Position numbers and translations under genes: made by a program | NCBI RefSeq assembly: GCF_008629675.1 | Contig: NZ_VWOX01000014.1 | Location: 62,001-126,000 of the forward strand | Direction: 5' to 3' | Length of the DNA stretch: 64,000 nt | From: Roseiconus nitratireducens | Lineage (GTDB): Bacteria > Planctomycetota > Planctomycetia > Pirellulales > Pirellulaceae | Part shown: positions 1,300-62,013 of the stretch, one piece after another | Layout of the letters: every line of letters starts with the position of its first letter | Numbering within the stretch: the stretch's first letter is position 1 | The notes under the pieces: generated by a model | Database searches by the model: none | The model's input: only the letters and a program-made list of their open reading frames with translations | What the model was told of the DNA's origin: nothing

Positions 1300-1584
1300 A
1301 TGCAGCCGGATTGCTGGGGCTCGCGATGTAGCATTGGGAGCCAGTCTGTCAGACTGACGCGGCACCTTGTCCAGTGACCCGCGGAGCAGAAGACAACTTA
1401 TCTTTCAGATCGGATGGTGGGACCGTGGAGATCTCAATGTGGCGGCTTCATGGGGACAAAGGACCGCGAGAGCCTTCAACCGGATCAGTCGGCGGGGACA
1501 GGGGGACTGGGGCGGAACGCGTCGGCCCGTTGCGACGACTCGGTGGGCCATCGGCGGGCCAAACGCGTTTCGTTACCGATCCCG

Positions 1585-1785
1585 CTACTCACCCTCAACC
1601 GCGGAGTCGGCTTCGGCGAGCCGCGCTTCCTCTTCGAGATCAACGGCCATGTCGGGGTTTTCCGCGAGGAACTGTTCGATTTCGTCGCCTTCGGCAACCG
1701 ACGTGGGTTCTGATGAACCTCCGCAACCGAGAAGAAGCGGCGAAACAAGGAGACAAGAGAAGAGCGTGAGCTTACGTAACTGCAT
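1585..1785 (-). CDS. Small acidic lipoprotein
   Basis: This 66-residue protein begins with a lipoprotein signal peptide: MQLRK, a hydrophobic stretch, then the lipobox LLLGCGG with the modified Cys near residue 21. The mature part is short and rich in Glu, Ala and Asp. A GGAG ribosome binding site lies 8 bases before the ATG. Planctomycetes often encode such a small lipoprotein directly downstream of a DUF1559 gene, as here. However, a strong terminator (1848-1880) stands between the two genes, so this one should have its own promoter. It has no recognisable domain and its role is unknown; an envelope-anchored function is inferred from the signal alone. Confidence 0.75.
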   Translation of the reverse strand: MQLRKLTLFSCLLVSPLLLGCGGSSEPTSVAEGDEIEQFLAENPDMAVDLEEEARLAEADSAVEGE

Positions 1786-1847
1786 ATCAACTACTCCAGT
1801 AAAAAAACGAATGAGTGACGTGGTGAGTGGGAAAAGATCATCAAAAC

Positions 1848-1880
1848 GAAGCCCCGCAGCAGGACGAGCTGCGGGGCTTC
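1848..1880 (-). terminator. Rho-independent terminator of the DUF1559 gene
   Basis: A perfect 13-bp inverted repeat (gaagccccgcagc and its complement) encloses a 7-base loop. On the minus strand the stem is followed by a T-rich stretch. It lies about 30 bases past the stop codon of the DUF1559 gene. Confidence 0.85.
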
Positions 1881-1910
1881 GCTGACGCGATCAACAGAAG
1901 GATTCCAGAG

Positions 1911-3131
1911 TTACTGGTTCAGCTGTTCCTTGATCGTCTCTTTGCTGGCTCGGGTCCCGAGGGCGCCCCAGAGACCAAACGGGCTTGGCGAGCCGGCTGG
2001 AGTGCAGCAGTTTCCGATCCGTACTTGGGCAGCCTCCTGGTTCCCGGATTCAATCGAATCGGTGATGAACACCACGGCGCCGTCGCCCATCAGGATGTGG
2101 CACCCGCCTTGGTGCCGGCTGCTCGGCGGGAAGACCCCTTGGCCCATGATCCAGTTGGTCTGGTGCAAGCATTGAGCTTTGTTGGGCGGGGTGATGGTCG
2201 TGATTCCGGTGTAATAGGGAATCCCGAACGCCCAGCAATACCCGCGGCCACGTTGCCCACCGCTAGCGATGTTCGTCCCCGGGGCGTAGAACTGCGGACG
2301 ATTGGGGTCGGAAAAATCTTGACAGGCGTTGGAGTTGCCGGGCAACCAGATAGCGACTTCCGATCGAGCAGCCGTGGTGCGAATGTCACGGTCTCCCAAA
2401 TCGGTAGCGATTTCCCCGGCAGCGATCGTGTTGGAAAGCCCGTCCAGGACGTCGCGGAACCGAGTGTCCCTTCGAGGAATGAAAAATCCACGTTGGGCGG
2501 CCTGCACAGCACGTGATCGCCAGGTCCCGTAGGTCCCGTCGTCTCGCCGTTCGCCACGGTGACCGAGGTGACTGGCGTCACCGACGGAGAACGCGTAGTT
2601 GTTTCGGCCCTGGGCTGGCAAGCCGAACCCTGGATCGCTGGGACAGCGCAGCGTTGGAATCTCTGTCAGCCAGGGTTCGTAACGGGAACTCGAGTGGCCC
2701 AGGTTTCCACCGAGTGGTTTCTGCGGGGATGGGCCCATCGATTGGTAAATGTCGCCATTTTGGTCTCTCAGAGGGTTGGAAATCTGTTCCCAGAGACCTT
2801 GTTGTTCCATAAACGGCATCAAGCCGACAAACGCGCTCAGAAACAAGTGGTCGTTCGCCGCCGGCGGCATGAAGCGTTCAGCACCTCCATTTGGCAATCC
2901 CGGTCCTCGCGTCGTCCCTCCGTTCTGCGTTGGGAGCTGCTTGTAAGCGGAGTGGTAATTGTGAATGGCCAAGCCGATCTGCTTGAAGTTGTTACTGCAG
3001 CTCATCCTGCGAGCTGCCTCGCGAGCGGATTGGACGGCCGGCAACAACAGACCGACAAGAATTCCAATGATTGCAATGACAACAAGGAGCTCAACGAGCG
3101 TAAAGCCCCGCCTGGGGAATCGGTGCGACAT
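1911..3131 (-). CDS. DUF1559 domain protein with prepilin-type N-terminus
   Basis: The ATG at 3131 is chosen because it is preceded by GGAG 6 bases upstream and places the class III prepilin motif at the N-terminus: [19 protein letters not shown], with cleavage expected after Gly and a Glu at +5. This is followed by the family hallmark [17 protein letters not shown] near residues 30-46. The C-terminus has the H-X9-DG-like block ([19 protein letters not shown]) typical of DUF1559. About 406 residues is the normal length. These proteins are a greatly expanded planctomycete family, thought to be pseudopilin-like surface or periplasmic proteins; the molecular role is not established. It is a single gene, with its own terminator downstream. 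Confidence 0.93.
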
Positions 3132-4172
3132 GGGTGTCTCCCAGTCAAATAGAAAAGAAGCAGGTGGCGCTCGAATCCAACTCGGAGGACAGGACCCGTG
3201 CGTTCCGCTCCCCCCGAAAATCAACACCCAACCAATGCCTGGTTTTTGTCGCCGTCTTCCAGGCTTTCTCGAGCTTCGAGGTCACCGTGCCGACCCGAAA
3301 CGCGACGTAGTGTCGCGTCAGGTTTCAACACCGGCAAAATGTCGCTGTCGCCGAACCGACGGGGACCACAGAGCGACCAAAACGAACGAAGAAGGGCTGG
3401 ACATTAGCCGGTGCGAGTTGTCAAGAGGAGAAGAAAGTGAAACCCCCACCCTAAGGTTTCTGGTGAGCGATCGCAAATTTTTTGAGAAAAAAAGCGAAAC
3501 TTATTCTTTTCTGGGGGGTTGCGCTTGATCGCCCGTGCACCTATGGGCGGGCGACGGCTCGAACCGTCGGAGGCATTTTTTGCGGCGCAAGCACGGGAGT
3601 GCGCGGCGTTGCAAAAAACGATGTCGCGACAATGCCAACCACCACGGCACCGCGGCGCGAACAGGCCTTAGCGGAATGCGCCTGTATTTTGAAGGTTGCG
3701 ATATCCAAACAGCCGAATCCGAAAGTCTGACGACTTCCGCTATCGGTTTCCGACACCTGGAGAGTTATGTGCTCGCCTCGAATCAGTGTGTCCGGGATCT
3801 GTTTCAGGAAAGAGCGCGGTCATTGGGGACAGAGCACTGCCAACGCCTCAGCTGCATCGATGCGGACCGAGCATTGGCGTCGAAGTTCACCTTCGCATCG
3901 ATTGCCCAGCTCTTCACCTTCACCCCCTACGGAAAAATGTTGGTCCTGGAAACCACGACTGGCGTTTGATCTGGGGACAAACGCATCCCTTGTGACCATC
4001 GTTGTGGTTGCTGATCACTTTTTCACGGGCGTCTTCGAATCTTGAGACGGCCCCGCCACTGGCTCACAAGCGATTGCTCACACAATGTTCGACGAGTCGA
4101 CCGCAGCCGTCCAAGAGCTTATTGCGAGCGTGATGACGCATCGCTCGGCCAGAGGGAGCCGTATTGCGAGTT
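3132..4172. other. Gene-poor region upstream of the DUF1559 gene
   Basis: About 1 kb without a convincing gene. An AT-rich patch around 3470-3515, unusual for this GC-rich DNA, is the likely promoter area for the DUF1559 gene. A single ggggacagagcact motif sits at 3825-3838. Open frames here show no family resemblance and no good start sites. Confidence 0.6.
3825..3838 (+). repeat. GGGGACAGAGCA motif, transposase-distal copy
   Basis: A single ggggacagagcact sits past the 3' end of the IS200-like transposase gene, in the orientation opposite to the copies on its 5' side. It is identical to the unit of the array at 954-1299. Confidence 0.75.
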
Positions 4173-5249
4173 TCAGGCAGCTGCCGGAAGAAGACGTCGG
4201 GCCAGGGGGCGGACTCGGAATCGCCTGCCTGTGTGATGGCTACGTACCGACTGCACGCGATCGCAACGACCGGCCACCAGGTAAAAACAGCGATCGAAGT
4301 CGGCGACCAATTCGCACCAAGACGATTGCTCAAGTCCCAAACGCTTCAAGATCGATGGCAGCCGCATGGGTGTCGACCCTCGTTTCCCTGGAGCGATCTG
4401 GCGGGCGGTCCAATCCAACAGCTCCAGATAAGCGTCATCACTGAGCGAGAGAAATCCCTTGTCGCTGCATCGGCGTCCGTTTTCCGCGGGGACTGCACCC
4501 ACCGCATCACTCTTTTCGATCGTCAGCTTTGCCAGAAACGCATCCCGGCGGGTCGCTGACGAAGCTCGAGGGCCACGGCAACCCGCAACGCTCGTTGGGC
4601 GAACGTCAAAACGGGACTCAAGTCGACGTTGGACCGAAGTGTGGTCGCTGGCCTCAACGGTTTCGGCAAGCCCGGCACGGATCGGGTTGAGGTCCACGTA
4701 GGCGGCGCACGCCAACAAGGACTCTTCGTCGTCCAGCCGTGTTGCCCGATAGCGATCTTGCCAGAATCGTCCCGATTGCTCGTCTTCGCGATTGGCGCGT
4801 TGGGCGATGTTCTGGTTCAACAAACGCATCCACCAGGAAATACTTCTCAATCGGCGACGCACTTCGGCCAACCGTACGGGGCAACGGCGGATCGAATCGA
4901 GTTCCGCTTCGGTCGGCGCGGCTGATTGACCTTTCTTACGCGTCGGTGGGCAGATCATCAGCCACCGACGAGCCACTTCCGTGTCGTCCCACGTTGCGAC
5001 GACGTCTGGCCGAGAGCGGAGGATCAAATGGTAGTGATTCGACAGAATGGCGAAGCACAGCAAGTCGATCCCGAAGCACCCGGCGAACCGCTCCAATCGC
5101 TCTTCGATCCAGACCTTGCGGTGATCGAAGTTTTTACCGCTGACGGGATCGTCACCGAACAAGAAACACCGACGGACGGTGCGGTTGACGACGTGAACGA
5201 GTGTGATTTGATCGGGATCGATCAATTCGGCACGGCACAGGCGGGCCAT
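4173..5249 (-). CDS. IS200-like (Y1) REP-associated transposase
   Basis: This 358-residue protein carries the Y1 transposase fold of IS200/IS605 enzymes. The HUH metal-binding motif is in ILSNHYHLILR near residue 72, and the candidate nucleophilic Tyr is in ACAAYVDLNPIRAGL, preceded by QSGRFWQDRYRATRL. It is longer than E. coli RAYTs (about 165-220 residues) because of a C-terminal extension of about 150 residues seen in planctomycete members. HUH enzymes cut and rejoin single-stranded DNA at hairpins. The gene lies between ggggacagagcact (3825-3838) and inverted copies of the motif (from 5409). Those copies are candidate REP substrates. There is no second transposon gene, so it looks like a domesticated or single-gene element. 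Confidence 0.9.
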   Translation of the reverse strand: MARLCRAELIDPDQITLVHVVNRTVRRCFLFGDDPVSGKNFDHRKVWIEERLERFAGCFGIDLLCFAILSNHYHLILRSRPDVVATWDDTEVARRWLMICPPTRKKGQSAAPTEAELDSIRRCPVRLAEVRRRLRSISWWMRLLNQNIAQRANREDEQSGRFWQDRYRATRLDDEESLLACAAYVDLNPIRAGLAETVEASDHTSVQRRLESRFDVRPTSVAGCRGPRASSATRRDAFLAKLTIEKSDAVGAVPAENGRRCSDKGFLSLSDDAYLELLDWTARQIAPGKRGSTPMRLPSILKRLGLEQSSWCELVADFDRCFYLVAGRCDRVQSVRSHHTGRRFRVRPLARRLLPAAA

Positions 5250-5408
5250 GGCGGCACCTCCGGATGGGCGTAACTCGACTAACGATGCCAGCTACCAAAG
5301 GAGTCCGATCTCCCGAACGCAGCTGATCGAGTCGGCAACGTGCCGCCCATGTCCACTGCAAGAAAATAGACACGCCAAGCCGGTCCATGTCAACGTTTCG
5401 TCGGCGGT

Positions 5409-5511
5409 AGTGCTCTGTCCCTCTTTGGTTGCTCTGTCCCCGTTTGCGACTCTTTGCGAGTGCTGTGTCCCCGTTTGCGACTTTGGTTGCTTTTGCGAGT
5501 GCTGTGTCCCC
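5409..5511 (-). repeat. Inverted GGGGACAGAGCA motifs upstream of the transposase
   Basis: Four copies of the complement of the motif start near 5409, 5429, 5459 and 5498. The first two read gctctgtccc, the last two the variant gctgtgtcccc. The last two belong to a direct repeat of about 39 bp that includes gtttgcga. Together with the copy at 3825 they bracket the transposase gene in inverted orientation. Confidence 0.75.
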
Positions 5512-5521
5512 GTTTGCGAGG

Positions 5522-5914
5522 GTGGGCGGGGGCAACGTTCGTGGGTTTGACGTGCGATCCGATCAAGCACTGGCTCGCTGGTGTGGAGTCGACACCGTGC
5601 GTTCGGGAATGAACGAAAGCCTCCGAGCCGGCCAAGTGAGATTCGGCGTCCTGCGGGGAACAAATTGCATCGCCCGAGATTTTTTTGGTGGCAATTTTTG
5701 CCGTTCGACAAATCGCCCGAAGGCACAGCCCGGCGGTTATGGCTCCATCATGGGCGGATAAAGGACGCGACGGCAACGCTACCGCGCAGCGGTAATTGCT
5801 GCGTGGTGGGTGACAATCCGTCCGCCGTCGCCGCACCTGAATACCAACCGGCGGAGGTTTGATATTCTGGAGCGATCCGGGAAACCACTCAGCCTCATAA
5901 CCGCAACGAATCTT
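5522..5914. other. Intergenic region before the large unknown gene
   Basis: About 390 bp with no convincing gene. It must contain the promoter of the gene starting near 5915, but I cannot single out -35/-10 boxes with confidence. Confidence 0.5.
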
Positions 5915-8900
5915 ATGTCGCTACTCCGTGAAAATCTTTCCCTCTACCGGGATGCTGGCGAACTTCAACGGGCAGTCGGGTGGTACAGGTCGATCTCGAC
6001 CGATCCGGCCGAGCGAACGAATCTCCGCAACTACTTGGCGCTCCAGCTGGCTGCTGCCGGTTTGCTGCCGCCGGACGACTCGGTCGCCCACTCGATGACC
6101 AAGTTTTCCGCCGGCATTCTGGACAGCATGCGGGAAAAGACGCGGCTGCTGTCCTCGCACCGAGTCCCGGTGGATTCCCGAATCGAAACCTTCCTTTCGA
6201 AGTACTTCCGTGACGAACTGGACGGGGACGAATTGAGTCTGCCGTCGCACACGTTGACCCTTGACCGTCATGGGATGGCCCGTGAATTGAGTTTGCCGAT
6301 CGACGGAGACGAATTCCGCAACGATCTGGTCAGCTCGTATCGCTGCCGCAACGGCGTGCTGAACAACCCTCGAGCCGACCGCCGCACGACGGCGGGAACG
6401 TTCCACGTCGTCGAAGGCGGTTTGCCGATCCCCGGCGACAAGTTGGCCGTGCCCAAAGAGGTGTTCGTCAACATCTTTCGCGCCGCAATGAATCCGCCCG
6501 ATGACATCATGCTGTTGCCGTACACCAGTCATGCGGAGCGGCCGTCGCGGACTTGGGTGTCGTTGCTGCTGCGTCCGTTGGTGTGCCCTGCGATCCCGGG
6601 GTTTTGTGAAGCGAAGTCGATGGAAACACGATTCTTCGTTCCCGGATGCCTGGTCAGCAATCTGGACTTTGTCGAGTCGATCTTTGGCAACGCCGGCGAT
6701 CCGTTGGTTCCGGAGAACGATGCGGGTCTGGACACCCGCGGCTGGACCGGGCACACGGGGTGCGTGATTTTGGCTCCGCACCTGACCCGGCTGACGAAAA
6801 AGGAATTGGGGCTGCCGCACGAGAAAGATGCCACGGCCCGTCAACGGCGGGACGGAATGTGTTGGAGCGACGAAGCGGAGCGGTACAACGGTGGCGGTGC
6901 GTTCAAGCTGACCTGCCGCGATCGGTCCGGCGTCGTGGTCACGCTGATTGCGGACAACTACTACGGGTATTGCAAGAAAGAAGTCAAAACGCAGATCAGC
7001 TACGCCTGCAATCTGATGGGGCGGGCCGAAGAGGAACACGCCGGCGGCGCGTTGGCGTTCGCTTCGTACTCGTTGGGCGAAGAGTTTCAAGTCGACAGCC
7101 GGCGGTACAACGGTCGGACCTTCAAGGACGTCGCTCGCGACTATGGCGAGTTCATTGACGTCAAGCCCGAGGGTTACGGGATCGACATTTTTGATCGATC
7201 GATCGTCTACATCCCCGAGAATGCCAAAGCAACGATGGCGGAACGTTGCATCAAGTGGGAGCGGGATGGCGAAGAATACCGAATCGGGTTGTCGCCCGAC
7301 CAGGTTTACATCGCCCCCAGCGGCTACCAGATTCGACTGGAAAAACACCCGGCCGCTCCGTCGTGGCGGTTGGTCGGAACGGTCGGTGAAGGCATCTTTT
7401 GCCACAAGCCCTGCACGGTCAGCGGCGGCGGGAAAAGCGAAATCAGCAAGAGTCTGCGGGACTACATGCTGTACGGCCCGATCTTCATCAACGATCGCGA
7501 GACGGACTTTGCGATGTTGGATGAGATCTTCGAGAAAAATTATTCGCACCGTTGGTCGGAGTCCTACCAAGGCCGCACCGATTACACCGATGGGCCCAGC
7601 CGAGCGGTCTTGGATCCGGCGCGGAGTTTGGGCAGCGTGATCAAGTTGCTGACGCCGTCACCGGATTACAACGATGACTACAACCGCTGGCTGGAAAAGA
7701 TTCCGCCACACGTCTACTCGATGGCGCTGATCATCAAACGTTTCACCGGGGATGAAGGCACGACGAATTGGAAGGAACGTTTCGGCGTGGACATCGTCAA
7801 CGGGACGCCCGGCCATGAATTGAAGATTGGCGACCGGACGTTGGTTGGGACCTACCTCCGCGTCGGGCTGGACGAAAACCGGTGGCGCACGTTCAAGTTG
7901 CGACAGGACTTCATCGCCGCCGCCAAGGTGCAGCGCGAAGATGACATCAGCGCCAGTGCAGTCGCTCCGGCCGAAGCCATTTCGAATCTTGGCAAGGCGA
8001 TTCAGCCCGCCGGGAGTTACAAGTTCGTCGAGAACTGTGAGTACCGATTGTTCCAGCGACCCGACGACGCCGTTCACCGTGGTCTGGACAAGCAAACCGA
8101 ATGGGACCTTTCCCAACCAGCCAACTTCATCAGCAACTTCGAGCCGCTCTCGACCGAAGACGTGGCCGAAGTGGTCCAAGACGCGATCGAGTTCGACCGG
8201 TACACCACGCCGATGAAGGAGTTGCTGGCCGACGCGTTGGAACACGGAGACAGCTACGTGGTCAGCACCTCCCATCCGCGGATCGTCGACGGAAAGCCGA
8301 CCAAGAATCCGCGGTATCTGCAGGACCGCCCGGACATGGTCAATGCTCGAGATACTTATGTCGCCCGCCGCGGCATCCAGTTTCATCGCGGACTGAAAGC
8401 CGATGATCCGATCCACATCCCGGTCGGCGCGGTGTTGGGAGGACGACGAAACAATCCTCCGGATCCCGAAACCGGCATCCGATCCCTGGCCGTGTATTCG
8501 CCCCTGCACTACCAGGAGCTTCCAGAACTGGTCATGGATTACTTGTGTTCTTTGACCGGCAAGAGTCCCAGCACGACCGGTGCGGGCAGCGAGGGCGCTC
8601 TCACCAAAGGGCCCTTCAACGCGCTGATGCCCTCGACCGACATGAACAACATGATCGTGTCGATGATCCTGACGGAGTTGGGCGGGTTCAGCACGGCGGC
8701 CGGACATATCGGCCCGCGTTTCGAAGTCGGCCACGACATCTCCCTGCTGATCCCCGAAGTCTGGTGTCGGCTGGGACCGGAAGAACGCGACCCGGCTCAC
8801 ATGATTCGCGCGGGCATGCTGGAAAAGATCGAAGACTTTGAGCATGACGGCAACTCGATTCCCGCCAGCCGCCTGGGCTATCGAATCACCCGACGGTTCG

Positions 8901-11134: not shown

Positions 11135-12799
11135 CTAACGAATCAGGCTCATGTAAAAACTGAACATCCGCTCGTCATCATAGTCCGCTTTGGCCACGGG
11201 GAAGGCAAAATCGAACGCCAGGGGAGCCGGACCCAAGGCTGGAATGGCGACGCGCAACCCGACGCCGGGTGCCACACGAAAAGTATCGGCATCCAGTTTA
11301 ACGCTCTGTTCCACGGTCCCGAAGTCACAAAATGCGACGCCGCGAAAAGCGTCGTCCGCCGTGATCGGGAACATGTATTCGACGGAATTGAGCCACTGAA
11401 ACTGACCGCCAATTTCGATGTCATTGACGACGGGGCTGGCTCCGCGGAAATCGAATCCGCGAAGCGTGGCGTAACCGCCGGCGAAGAAGTGCTCGAACAC
11501 GGGCGTGTCGTTGCCGCTGAAACCCAATTGGGTGCTGTAGGACAACGTCTGCTTACCACTTCCGTCGGCTCGGGAAGCAAGCAGCCAGTATTTTCGATGT
11601 TCGACCTCGAGTCGGGAATACTCAAAATCGCCGAACGTTTCCTCGAATTTCAGCTCGAAGTAGTGCCCCTGGCTCGGTTGGATGGGACTGTCGCGCGTGT
11701 TATGTGTCAGGCTGATGGTGCCACTGTACAGTTCGTTGTTGCCTTCCAGTTCGTTCAGCTCCGGCACGCCGCCGTAGGGTTTTCGAATGTTGTCGACTTC
11801 GACGTTTTGACCGCCAATGCCGACGGCGATCGAAAGGTCGGGCGTGATCCGGTAGCCCAAGGAGAATCGAGCCCCCAGCCGGTTTTCGTCCCAATCGCGG
11901 AAGCGTCGGTCGTACAGGAATCCGCTGGACGAGAAGCTGATGGGAAGGTATCCGAACAGGTTCGGGTCGGCGAATTGGAGGGAGTAGCGATCGAATTGAC
12001 TGCCAGGTGCGGCTTCCAGCCGAAACGTTTGTCCGGCGCCGCGAAAGGCGGTCCCGCTGAAGAAGTCACGGAAGGACCGCGGCCACCGCATGATGTCGAA
12101 GTTGCGTTCATCGATCGTGACTTGTCCGGTCACGCCGGCGTCACTGTTGACGGCACCGCCGAACATGATGCGTCCGGTGCGTGCGGGAAAACCGTTGACG
12201 ACCAAGTCGGCCACACGAACGTTCGGGGTGTAGACCGGAGCGGTACCGACCGGCGGAAACACTTCGCCGGTCCCGGGCATCATCGCACCCGGAGGGGCCA
12301 TTGGAGGCGTGCGAGGTCCGAATTGCGTTGGCGGGAATGTTTGTGTGCTCGGTGGTGAAGCCGGGGGCGCCGTTTGCGGCGGAGGATACGCCGGCGGAGC
12401 CGACGGGACGTAGGGTTGCCCGGGCTGTGAGTAGCTTTGCGGGGGCGTGTAGGGCTGGGTGTAAGATTGACCGGAAGGGCTGTAGGGTTGGCCGGGTTGG
12501 CTGTAGGACGGTGCGGGTTGTCCGTAAGTTTGTTGGTTGGATGGTTGGCCGTAGGGCTGCGTGTAAGGTTGGCCGGTTTGGCCGCTTCCCACCGAGGAAG
12601 TAGCCAACACAGCACCGACCGCTAACAGGACCGAGGTCCACCGCGGGGTGCGGCGACGGTTGCGGTGCAACCGGTCGGCAGTCGGCAATCTGAGGTCAAA
12701 GGAGTCCATGCGGCTGTTGTCGCGTGCGTCGTTGCGAGAGGGCATTGCCGTGGCGGGTGCGGCGTCGCGGTTGTGGAAGACTTGGGGGCGTGGTGTCAT
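11135..12799 (-). CDS. BamA/Omp85-type outer-membrane beta-barrel without POTRA domains
   Basis: This is a 554-residue protein with a signal peptide (RRTPRW then a hydrophobic run, about 51-72), a Gln/Pro/Tyr-rich linker of about 115 residues with repeated QPY/QPG units (75-190), and then an Omp85 barrel. The barrel starts at ARTGRIMFGGAVNSDAGVTG (near 206), which corresponds to the 'tG-x-x-x-fG-G-y-ss' segment after POTRA5 of BamA. It includes the conserved GGYATLRGFDF (the RGF motif of the L6 loop). The last residue is Arg (FYMSLIR) rather than the usual aromatic. The ATG overlaps the TGA of the POTRA gene by one base. An ATG 30 codons in (12709) is an alternative start. Confidence 0.88.
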   Translation of the reverse strand: MTPRPQVFHNRDAAPATAMPSRNDARDNSRMDSFDLRLPTADRLHRNRRRTPRWTSVLLAVGAVLATSSVGSGQTGQPYTQPYGQPSNQQTYGQPAPSYSQPGQPYSPSGQSYTQPYTPPQSYSQPGQPYVPSAPPAYPPPQTAPPASPPSTQTFPPTQFGPRTPPMAPPGAMMPGTGEVFPPVGTAPVYTPNVRVADLVVNGFPARTGRIMFGGAVNSDAGVTGQVTIDERNFDIMRWPRSFRDFFSGTAFRGAGQTFRLEAAPGSQFDRYSLQFADPNLFGYLPISFSSSGFLYDRRFRDWDENRLGARFSLGYRITPDLSIAVGIGGQNVEVDNIRKPYGGVPELNELEGNNELYSGTISLTHNTRDSPIQPSQGHYFELKFEETFGDFEYSRLEVEHRKYWLLASRADGSGKQTLSYSTQLGFSGNDTPVFEHFFAGGYATLRGFDFRGASPVVNDIEIGGQFQWLNSVEYMFPITADDAFRGVAFCDFGTVEQSVKLDADTFRVAPGVGLRVAIPALGPAPLAFDFAFPVAKADYDDERMFSFYMSLIR

Positions 12800-14301
12800 C
12801 AGTACGCGTCCTCCACCGGTTCGACGATGATGTCCGGCGGATCAGCGATCTGCGGATTGGTTTCCAACAGCTGACTGTTCAACAAGCGTCGTTGTCCGAT
12901 CTCGAGCAGTCGCCGGTCGATGAAATCGCCTTCCCGCATATCAAGCATGTTCAGCATCACGGTCTCACGCATCAGGTGGGGTTCGCCTTCGATGTTGACG
13001 CGGATCTGTCCGATCTTCCATCGGTCGCCTTCGTTGATCTTGTAAACCAGGTCCACGGTGTTCTCTTCATCCAGCATCACCGTCTGCGGTTGGATGTCGG
13101 CGTAGATGAAGCCCAGCTCGCCGTAACCGTAGACCAGTTCGCCGACGTCACGTTTCATGATCGTGCCGTCGAACATGTCACCGGCTTGTAGCTCCAGGCG
13201 GGCTCGAAGCGATTCCTCCGTGATGAACTGATTGCCGACGATCTGCACGCTGTTGATTTTGAAACGCTGTCCTTCGTTGATCACGAAGGTGACGGTCAGC
13301 CACTTGCCCGTTTCGTCGTACGCCAGCCGTCGTCCCACCGTGGCGGTCAAATATCCCAGGTTGTGGTAGGTGGCGGCCAGGATGTCGACGTCTTGATCGA
13401 TCTTTTTGATGTCAGCGGTGTTGAACGCGTAGCCATACACGCCCAGCAGCGGACCGTTGCTTTTGATCAGCGATTTCAGGCGGGCCGCACTCAGCACGCT
13501 GTTGCCGACGATCTTGATGTCCGCAATGCGTTCCTTCGGTCCCTCGTTGATTCGAAAGACGACGAATCCGGGTTGGTCTTCGAATCCGATGGTTGAAGTG
13601 ATCGCGACCTGATTGAAGCCTTCTTCCTTGTAGTAGTCGATCAGGCGTCGACGCGCCGATTCCACCGAGAATTCGCTCAGCGGGTCCTTCACCGCCAGAC
13701 CCGACCGGCCCACCAATTCACGGTCGTTCAGACGTTGGTTGCCGTGGTATTCGATCCGCGTGATCAACGGCCGTTCGTGCACAATGAAGGTCACGGCGAT
13801 CCCGTCGGGGGTCTCGCGTGTCTTGAAGCTGACATGGTCGAACGAGTTCATCTTGTTCAACCGGTGGATGTCACCGAGCAGCACTTCGCGGCTGAAGAAC
13901 CGTCCTTTCTTGGTCTGCATCTCCTGCAGAATCGTATTCTCAGCCAAGGAGCGGTTGCCCGAGACGTCCACGCTGGCGATGACTTTGCCACCTGTTTCAC
14001 GCCCGATCGGCAACAGATCCTGGTTATGAATGTGGTCCCGAAATCGCGGCCGTTCAGCCGGTCCGGTGATTCCGCCGCTCTGCCCCGCAGGACCGCCCAT
14101 TCCCGGTCCGCCGAATTGGGCCCGGGTCGTCGCTGTATTCCCGAACAGGACCGCGAAGACGACCAGTGCGCCTCCGACGCGTGCCAGGACGCTGCGGACG
14201 TGGGGACCGAGGTGATCTCTGGGACCGCTGCAATCTCTTAGCCAGACGCAGTGTCCGGACCGCAAGGGCCGTTGATTGGGCTCGTGGTGCCGCTGATTCA
14301 T
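12799..14301 (-). CDS. POTRA-domain protein, periplasmic half of a split BamA
   Basis: It has a signal peptide (hydrophobic RVGGALVVFAVLFGNTATTR, cleavage after TRA) and then POTRA repeats in series, each beginning with a motif such as IASVDVSGNRSL, ITRIEYHGNQRLND, IADIKIVGNSVLS, INSVQIVGNQFIT and IGQIRVNIEGEP. Four repeats are complete and the fifth stops before its last beta strand, at DIIVEPVEDAY. No barrel follows; the stop codon overlaps the start of the barrel gene (TGATG). In BamA these domains recruit outer-membrane proteins in the periplasm. The ATG at 14301 is preferred; the frame continues upstream to a TTG at 14391. Together the two genes have every part of BamA. Confidence 0.9.
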   Translation of the reverse strand: MNQRHHEPNQRPLRSGHCVWLRDCSGPRDHLGPHVRSVLARVGGALVVFAVLFGNTATTRAQFGGPGMGGPAGQSGGITGPAERPRFRDHIHNQDLLPIGRETGGKVIASVDVSGNRSLAENTILQEMQTKKGRFFSREVLLGDIHRLNKMNSFDHVSFKTRETPDGIAVTFIVHERPLITRIEYHGNQRLNDRELVGRSGLAVKDPLSEFSVESARRRLIDYYKEEGFNQVAITSTIGFEDQPGFVVFRINEGPKERIADIKIVGNSVLSAARLKSLIKSNGPLLGVYGYAFNTADIKKIDQDVDILAATYHNLGYLTATVGRRLAYDETGKWLTVTFVINEGQRFKINSVQIVGNQFITEESLRARLELQAGDMFDGTIMKRDVGELVYGYGELGFIYADIQPQTVMLDEENTVDLVYKINEGDRWKIGQIRVNIEGEPHLMRETVMLNMLDMREGDFIDRRLLEIGQRRLLNSQLLETNPQIADPPDIIVEPVEDAY

Positions 14302-14587
14302 GAGGTGGCGCGATTCGGTTCGACGAAGGCGACGCGAAATCCGTTTCGCGTCTTGAGCCGTGCTCCGGGGGAGCTTTTGCGGTGTTACCAATGAGGGGAG
14401 GGCGAAGACAAGGCAGATTCATCGCCGACGCGAGGTCCGAATCTGGAAAACCGCGATAAATCATCCCTCGGTAGGCTCTGACCGCCTTAGCCCCGGGCAG
14501 CGGGACCGATTGACGGTTGGATTTCCGGCGGGTGTGGCCCCCCGGAATATCAGCAGATCGAAAACCGACGACATGCCGCGTGACCGG

Positions 14588-15044
14588 GGAGCTGGCGGAG
14601 CCAGCGGGCATTGCGTTCCCGGGCGGGAGCCCGGGAACGAGAGCACGAAACGGCCCCTGGTTCCAAGGCTCCCGCCCTGGAACCGGATGTGTTGCCGGCT
14701 CTGCCGGCCAACCTTCCCTGTGGAGCTGGCGGAGCCAGCGGGCATCGCGTTCCCGGGCGGGAGCCCGGGAACGAGAGCGCGAAACGGCGCCTGGTTCCAA
14801 GGCTCCCGCCCTGGAACCGGATGTGTTGCCGGCTCTGCCGGCCAACCTTCCCTGTGGAGCTGGCGGAGCCAGCGGGCATTGCGTTCCCGGGCGGGAGCCC
14901 GGGAACGAGAGCGCGAAACGGCGCCTGGTTCCAAGGCTCCCGCCTTGGAACCGGATGTGTTGCCGGCTCTGCCGGCCAACCTTCCCTGTGGAGCTGGCGG
15001 AGCCAGCGGGGCATTGCGTTCCCGGGCGGGAGCCCGGGAACGAG
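14588..15044. repeat. Tandem array of a 134-bp hairpin-rich unit
   Basis: Units start at 14588, 14722, 14856 and 14990; the first three are complete at 134 bp and the fourth stops after about 55 bp. Each unit holds several inverted repeats: gctggc-gga-gccagc, ttcccgggc-ggga-gcccgggaa, and ggttccaaggc paired with gccctggaacc. In the third unit the last pair is perfect (gccttggaacc). The array fills most of the space between the divergent bam operon and the lipid kinase gene. Confidence 0.95.
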
Positions 15045-61668: not shown

Positions 61669-62013
61669 ATGAAAGCGATGCTTCGACGCGCCATGATCGA
61701 TACGGAAACATTTGTTGTCGAAATGGTCTATGTGGATTCCCAGGGGAACCGTACCCGTCGCGTGGTCAGTCCGATCCGGTTTGTCGGGCAGGACCGATTC
61801 CTGGGATTGTGTCTGTGCCGTGAGGAACCGCGTCAGTTTCACCTGTCACGCTGCCAGGACGTGCGGCTGATCCCTGCCGCCGAGGTCATGATGCCCGTGC
61901 CGATGCAGGTCTTGGGGCCCGCCGAGGCCGTTGAAGGGCAAGAAGACAATCGTGCGGCGATCCCCGCGTTGGGCGGATTGGCGGGCGACGTGGCGGGCGC
62001 CTGCCTGGTGTGA
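61669..62013 (+). CDS. Small WYL-like domain protein
   Basis: This 114-residue protein begins with MKAMLRRAMIDTETFVVEMV (ATG 61669; a GTG at 61666 is an alternative). The central part reads VVEMVYVDSQGNRTRRVVSP followed by FLGLCLCREEPRQFHLSRC, which fits the WYL domain pattern 'Y-x-d-x-x-G-x-x-x-R-x-x-x-P ... y-L-x-a-x-c ... R-x-F-x-l-x-R'. WYL domains bind ligands or nucleic acids and usually sit behind a helix-turn-helix; none is present here. A stand-alone WYL protein would be a ligand sensor or regulator partner. The assignment is from pattern only. Confidence 0.65.
   Translation: MKAMLRRAMIDTETFVVEMVYVDSQGNRTRRVVSPIRFVGQDRFLGLCLCREEPRQFHLSRCQDVRLIPAAEVMMPVPMQVLGPAEAVEGQEDNRAAIPALGGLAGDVAGACLV

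Follow-up and report, generated by a model that had tools for sequence, protein, structure and literature searches.

Two genes at the bamA locus

BamA, by which other proteins are inserted into the outer membrane, is commonly seen as a conserved protein made of one chain in bacteria that have this membrane. In the stretch of Roseiconus nitratireducens DNA analysed here (64,000 nucleotides, positions 62,001 to 126,000 of contig NZ_VWOX01000014.1, which is contig 14 of the genome coded G000; hereafter the window), it is encoded by two adjacent open reading frames (ORFs) on the minus strand, the first for a chain of POTRA domains (500 amino acids, aa) and the second for a chain that holds the Omp85 barrel (554 aa).

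The POTRA-chain gene, which corresponds to the N-terminal half of bamA, lies at 12799..14301 and was read from the ATG at 14301, and its frame is open further upstream, to a TTG at 14391. Its N-terminal region (14119..14301) contains a hydrophobic segment and a predicted signal peptide that extends to about residue 61, ending at TTRA before Q, and has no lipoprotein signal (lipobox). Residues 107-495 (12817..13983) were assigned to POTRA1-5 by the Pfam match, the predicted model and structural alignment. The fifth domain (12817..13017) is incomplete, since comparison of the model with E. coli BamA accounts for strand 1, two helices and strand 2 (PPDIIVEP), and the chain ends with DIIVEPVEDAY.

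The barrel-chain gene, the C-terminal half of bamA, follows at 11135..12799. At the junction (12797..12814), the sequence GGAGG (12814-12810) is found in the terminal part of the POTRA gene, by eye 10 nt ahead of the barrel ATG, and stop and start overlap as TGATG (12801-12797). The start codon of the barrel chain is uncertain, because in-frame ATGs are also present at residues 19 and 31, closer to the hydrophobic segment; of the three candidates, only the first is preceded by GGAGG, as judged by eye. The N-terminal region with the signal peptide (residues ~1-73; 12581..12799) has its hydrophobic part at about residues 55-69 and no lipobox, and looks like a signal of the signal peptidase I kind. 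It is followed by a linker (12221..12580) that was assigned as disordered from its composition (P 30%, Q 14% and Y 9% of 111 residues counted) and from a predicted local distance difference test score (pLDDT) below 50. Next comes the strand VRVADLVVNGFPA (residues 194-206; 12182..12220), the homologue of E. coli BamA residues ~409-421 and thus of the last strand of POTRA5, and finally the 16-stranded Omp85 barrel (residues 208-554; 11138..12178), which includes the RGF motif of loop 6 (R447-F449). A sequence-only reading of this DNA had described the two ORFs, the DIIVEPVEDAY end and the TGATG overlap, and all of these were found where it had placed them. The 1:1 translation that it derived from the overlap may apply.

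Profile searches assigned the two chains to the two parts of BamA. The POTRA chain matched the Pfam POTRA family in four stretches (E = 1.3e-48) and the barrel chain matched Omp85 (E = 3.6e-48), without any POTRA match at E up to 1. On the NCBIfam model for BamA (TIGR03303), the POTRA chain covers positions 1-371 (200.6 bits) and the barrel chain positions 395-738 (150 bits). Each score is below the cut-off of 297.15, and annotation is affected accordingly, as neither half alone is recognised as BamA. The RGF motif of loop 6 is a hallmark of BamA, and R447, G448 and F449 were invariant in all 15 aligned barrels. In the whole assembly, which is 93% complete, one place with an Omp85 match and one POTRA-bearing frame were detected, and the search revealed no further Omp85 or POTRA locus at E ≤ 0.001. 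A search for BamD as a partner (PF13525, BamD/YfiO) gave no clear BamD in the genome; the sole matches were three weak stretches in one 1128-aa frame (contig 53, 193097-195370). The five POTRA domains are complete only when both chains are counted, four being whole and the fifth lacking its last strand on the POTRA chain. The locus is BamA by homology, fold and sole presence, and not by the usual single polypeptide.

Planctopirus limnophila is a planctomycete of another order. In this different species, bamA is reported to be essential (PMC10632474).

The break between the two chains falls between strands 2 and 3 of POTRA5. In structural alignment with E. coli BamA, residues 106-500 of the POTRA chain mapped on 24-409 and residues 207-553 of the barrel chain on 422-808; the E. 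coli strand between 409 and 422 corresponds to the strand on the second chain. The predicted model of the POTRA chain consists of four strand-helix-helix-strand-strand units and a fifth strand-helix-helix-strand unit, and the chain stops five residues past strand 2 of POTRA5. The model of the barrel chain has 16 strands, starting at residue 209, and the pre-barrel strand lies outside these. The earlier proposal that the last POTRA5 strand is carried by the second chain is thus backed by homology, by both predicted models and by the alignment to E. coli BamA. From the sequences and models, the two chains would assemble in trans.

Conservation of the split in the Pirellulaceae

For comparison, 100 loci were fetched, in most cases a single one for each genus code, and were classed by means of profiles that had been built up from the window's own domains. 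Together with the window, 71 loci were split, 27 fused and three cut by contig ends. Family code f1 was equated with the Pirellulaceae on a best named-record match to Stieleria tagensis (Pirellulaceae, Pirellulales). In this family 63 of 65 loci were split, the other two were cut by contig ends and none was fused; the 63 came from 57 genus codes. Twelve further loci came from named records (L031-L042), and all were split, and the other two named-record loci (L043 and L044; Planctomycetota, 33 and 30% identity) were fused. The one-contig genomes G001, G002, G011 and G092 (L045, L046, L047 and L063) were also split. In the 143 of 149 Pirellulaceae genomes that gave a match, the Omp85 frame was 432-718 aa for E < 1e-40 among the matches listed. 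The sequence-only reading had suggested a comparison with relatives; the split proved to be conserved, and single-chain BamA, which was looked for in close relatives, was not found.

Seven loci cut by contig ends were left unclassed (L075, L098, L114, L145, L146, L148 and L149), and f1 matches that were partial or at contig ends were left out (e.g. G018, G028, G035, G351, G372 and G409). In a phylum sample of 195 genomes, the frames outside Pirellulales were at least 690 aa among the matches listed, except in G563 (566 aa) and G701 (618 aa). Short frames among the matches listed for the class sample were those of G183 (546 aa, a frameshift), G199 (622 aa) and G297 (355 aa). Outside f1, the short frames of G199, G297, G444, G446, G456, G563 and G701 were left unclassed.

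The POTRA and barrel genes were adjacent in all 71 uncut split loci; the POTRA profile ended at position 380-386 of 386 in all 71 POTRA chains, and the barrel profile started at position 1-3 in all 76 barrel chains (cut and second copies counted). A possible barrel start upstream of the hydrophobic segment was present in 70 of the 71 loci, the exception being L115. The distance between this start and the POTRA stop was at most 15 nt in 38 split loci, and the nearest possible start (ATG, GTG or TTG) was at -1 or -4 in only 17 of 71, so exact overlap is not a trait of the family.

The two edges of the broken hairpin were also conserved. In all 63 Pirellulaceae pairs, two hydrophobic positions were kept in each of strands 2 and 3, a Pro ahead of strand 2 was invariant, and the hydrophobic positions of the pre-barrel strand alternated. 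This strand was inside the coverage of the barrel profile in all 76 barrel chains. Its conservation, although it lies outside the 16-stranded barrel, is the best evidence for a continued role in POTRA5, which would now be exerted across chains.

Both chains of the window are under purifying selection. Nonsynonymous substitution (dN) was far below synonymous substitution (dS) in both chains when these were compared with L031 and L033; with L031, dN/dS was 0.134/1.348 for POTRA1-5 and 0.078/1.456 for the strand and barrel. For 16 codons around the strand, comparison with L031 and L033 gave a dN of 0.028 versus a dS of 1.093. Change is faster in the linker and the N-terminal parts than in POTRA1-5 and the strand and barrel.

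Insertion in fused relatives and the lipoprotein signal

The single-chain BamA of other Pirellulales (L118-L141) is homologous to the split genes, and in all 24 loci the same two strands are separated by an insertion of 152-441 residues, measured from profile end to profile start. Unlike the split locus, each consists of one frame of 937-1429 aa with one N-terminal signal, and the disordered insertion lies in the very hairpin at which the split loci are broken; in the Pirellulaceae, the stop and the start fall inside the insertion region. In fused loci outside Pirellulales the insertion measured 13 (L142), 107 (L143) and 138 residues (L144), which indicates that a shorter insertion is not confined to this order. 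In the simplest reading of these sequences, the insertion preceded the fission.

In trees, the 63 Pirellulaceae rows formed one clade, with a support of 99 in the SH-like approximate likelihood ratio test (SH-aLRT). A more careful tree of 78 rows, built without L142, L158 and 33 of the Pirellulaceae rows, also grouped the 30 remaining ones (100/99); the second barrels of L106 and L108, described below, were left out of the trees. More than one lineage is split, the others being f3 (six loci), f4 (one), f5 (two, from one genome), f9 (two) and one f17 genome that is nested among fused f17. A single origin of all splits was rejected in the approximately unbiased (AU) test (p = 0.0001), and fission has therefore probably recurred; one origin for f1, f3, f4 and f9 together was not rejected (AU p = 0.194); the groups compared were defined with the tree already at hand. 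Six changes were counted on the tree (bootstrap 5-6), three of which are forced by well-supported branches. The tree alone cannot tell fission from re-fusion, and there were probably at least two fissions, unless the fused rows arose by re-fusion.

Some motifs recur around the break. RGQ was present after POTRA5 strand 2 in 29 of 63 Pirellulaceae POTRA tails and in 23 of 27 fused chains, as well as in 32 of 67 barrel-chain linkers of the Pirellulaceae. The longer form RGQSP(D/E) is recurrent in the disordered insertion of fused and split Pirellulales loci (e.g. L121, L124, L125 and L128), and may be a docking motif. It was also found that the POTRA tails of L048, L050, L053, L060, L061, L084, L107 and others carry a strand-like motif (e.g. 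LDLDIYV), mostly after RGQSP. This motif looks similar to the pre-barrel strand, which would fit a duplication of the last POTRA5 strand that left one copy on each side of the break.

Inspection of the N-termini revealed lipoboxes (e.g. LSGC, LTGC or LAGC) on most barrel chains. By rule, a lipobox was assigned to 50 of 63 Pirellulaceae barrel chains and to 5 of 8 other split barrel chains, compared with 3 of 27 fused BamA, 13 of 63 Pirellulaceae POTRA chains and 0 of 7 other split POTRA chains. For the Pirellulaceae barrel chains, Fisher's test gave p = 1.3e-9 against fused BamA and 3.9e-11 against the POTRA chains of the same family, relatedness being ignored. By eye, the rule misses likely cases in L063, L067, L069 and L096. 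No lipobox was assigned by rule to the barrel chain of the window or to three other loci of its genus, and the f5 barrels have none; in the split f17 case (L147), translation by eye revealed IAVAGC. In E. coli, Asp after the Cys acts as a signal for retention in the inner membrane. Among the 55 lipobox hits, this residue was Ala in 22 and Asp in none. As judged from these sequences, the free N-terminus of the barrel chain is probably lipid-anchored to a membrane in most sampled Pirellulaceae.

The POTRA chain also had a lipobox by rule in L076, L080, L082, L105, L106 and L108, where both halves are perhaps lipoproteins. In the genus coded g210 (L106, ~1546-6409, and L108), a single POTRA gene precedes two barrel genes in tandem; the rule assigns a lipobox to the first barrel, and the second has none and carries a Pro/Gln-rich linker. 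Elsewhere in the window, a tandem array (14588-15044; 134-base unit, 3.4 copies, 98% matches) lies upstream of the POTRA gene.

A probable two-chain BamA and its alternatives

The reading that we prefer, with a probability of roughly 0.8, is that the locus encodes a working two-chain BamA, the product of a gene fission within a long, disordered stretch inserted between beta2 and beta3 in the POTRA5 hairpin. The first chain would be a periplasmic module of POTRA1-5 whose fifth domain lacks the last strand, and the second would bring its own export signal, the disordered linker, the missing strand and a complete 16-stranded barrel. Translation of the neighbouring genes would be coupled, which in the window may be favoured by GGAGG and the TGATG overlap, and each chain would be exported separately by its own signal. 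The barrel would then be inserted by existing BAM while the linker remains periplasmic. The strand adjacent to barrel strand 1 could pair with POTRA5 strand 2 of the other chain, in a manner resembling donor-strand complementation, and this pairing would dock the POTRA module non-covalently onto the barrel. Compared with the sequence-only reading, the conservation throughout the family, the insertion that fused relatives carry, the probable recurrence of fission and the lipobox are additions of the present study.

Several observations weigh against this reading. The predicted models were built on 14-15 sequences only. The pLDDT of the barrel chain is low before residue 225, a region that takes in the crucial pre-barrel strand as well as strand 1 of the barrel, and alignment of the whole POTRA chain gave a root-mean-square deviation of 9-10 Å, which is loose, though in line with domain flexibility. 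When the window was compared with L037, the 16-codon strand segment had a dN of 0.466 and a dS of 0.523, so that low dN is not universal. In 13 of 63 Pirellulaceae POTRA tails a regular expression detected a strand-like motif after strand 2 (that in L086 probably by chance); POTRA5 could thus be closed in cis, and completion in trans need not be general. The window tail has no such motif. Finally, the classed loci were hand-picked, mostly one genome per genus code, with many contig-end matches omitted.

Two frames would also result if an ordinary single-chain bamA had been hit by a recent frameshift or misread in sequencing, and a real example of this was met in G183 (L115), in a family of another order. 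Compared with its fused congener G207 (L144, 89% identity), L115 has one base fewer in the linker region, and it has neither a start codon nor a signal peptide for the barrel frame; it can be explained by a sequencing error or by a newly arisen frameshift. For the window and its family, this explanation was rejected and is hardly credible. The 63 of 65 split Pirellulaceae loci come from independent assemblies, one-contig genomes included, and the second ORF has, unlike that of L115, its own possible start and signal peptide. The two-gene BamA is confirmed as a real observation, and the earlier view that it is no simple frameshift holds. Programmed frameshifting or stop readthrough, by which part of the BamA of the cell would also be made as a fused chain, could be suspected from the TGATG overlap in the window and from the single frame relation shared by all eight split loci outside the Pirellulaceae in the first set. 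Within the Pirellulaceae, however, the barrel gene is in relation 2 to the POTRA gene in 20 loci, in relation 0 in 17 and in relation 1 in 26 (n = 63), so there is no conserved frameshift signal and programmed frameshifting is ruled out as a rule of the family. A fusion would moreover carry an internal signal peptide, with a lipobox in most sampled genera, and we consider this explanation very improbable.

The two proteins might instead act separately, the barrel alone as an insertase and the POTRA protein as a periplasmic chaperone, with no shared POTRA5. Omp85 proteins without an N-terminal extension are known, and Sam50 was reported to work without POTRA (PMC4104836); those POTRA tails that could close POTRA5 in cis would fit as well. 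Separate action is nevertheless unlikely, given the retention of the pre-barrel strand, which lies outside the barrel model yet is covered by the profile in every barrel chain and keeps its hydrophobic pattern throughout the Pirellulaceae, the constant adjacency of the POTRA and barrel genes, and the end of the POTRA chain only a few residues past strand 2 in the clade of the window.

Compared with BamA of the E. coli type (TIGR03303, PF07244 and PF01103), the two-chain BamA would consist of two polypeptides that share POTRA5, with a second export signal and about 120 disordered residues ahead of the last POTRA5 strand. TamL, the lipoprotein TamA of Bacteroidota, is part of the TAM system, and its single chain includes POTRAs of its own. 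As an Omp85 barrel with an N-terminal lipid, it provides the closest precedent for lipidation of an Omp85 protein, and a mutant of its lipidation site is reported as not obtainable in Flavobacterium johnsoniae (PMC12045153). Unlike in TamL, the lipobox here is on the half of BamA that has no POTRA, and it is absent in the window species. The 'noNterm' Omp85 proteins are, as here, barrel-only chains (PMC4104836). In two-partner (type Vb) secretion, two genes also form an operon, the other gene being that of the passenger (PMC6604945). In these sources, neither kind is presented as halves of BamA. Speth 2012 gave a single BamA accession for each of Pirellula staleyi, Blastopirellula marina and two strains of Rhodopirellula baltica, and the word POTRA does not occur in that paper (PMC3422733). 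No description of a split BamA was found in the literature searched, in which subscription papers were thinly covered.

A broader view, which we put forward tentatively and hold to be possible rather than probable, is that BamA of the Pirellulaceae may be a modular two-part machine, in which a barrel that is lipid-tethered in most genera receives its POTRA module by donation of a single strand. The modules could then be exchanged, regulated or shared, as might be the case in the one genus whose single POTRA gene would serve two barrels, and within the order, fission would have struck the POTRA5 hairpin repeatedly, at least two and up to six times.

The POTRA domains are usually presumed to act on the barrel through the covalent link that joins POTRA5 to it. 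If the two-chain reading is true, a BamA that is divided within a folded domain would demonstrate that this link can be dispensed with, and these bacteria would be a natural setting for producing, labelling or withholding the POTRA module and the barrel independently of each other. The family also raises the question of why the barrel half so often bears a lipoprotein signal.

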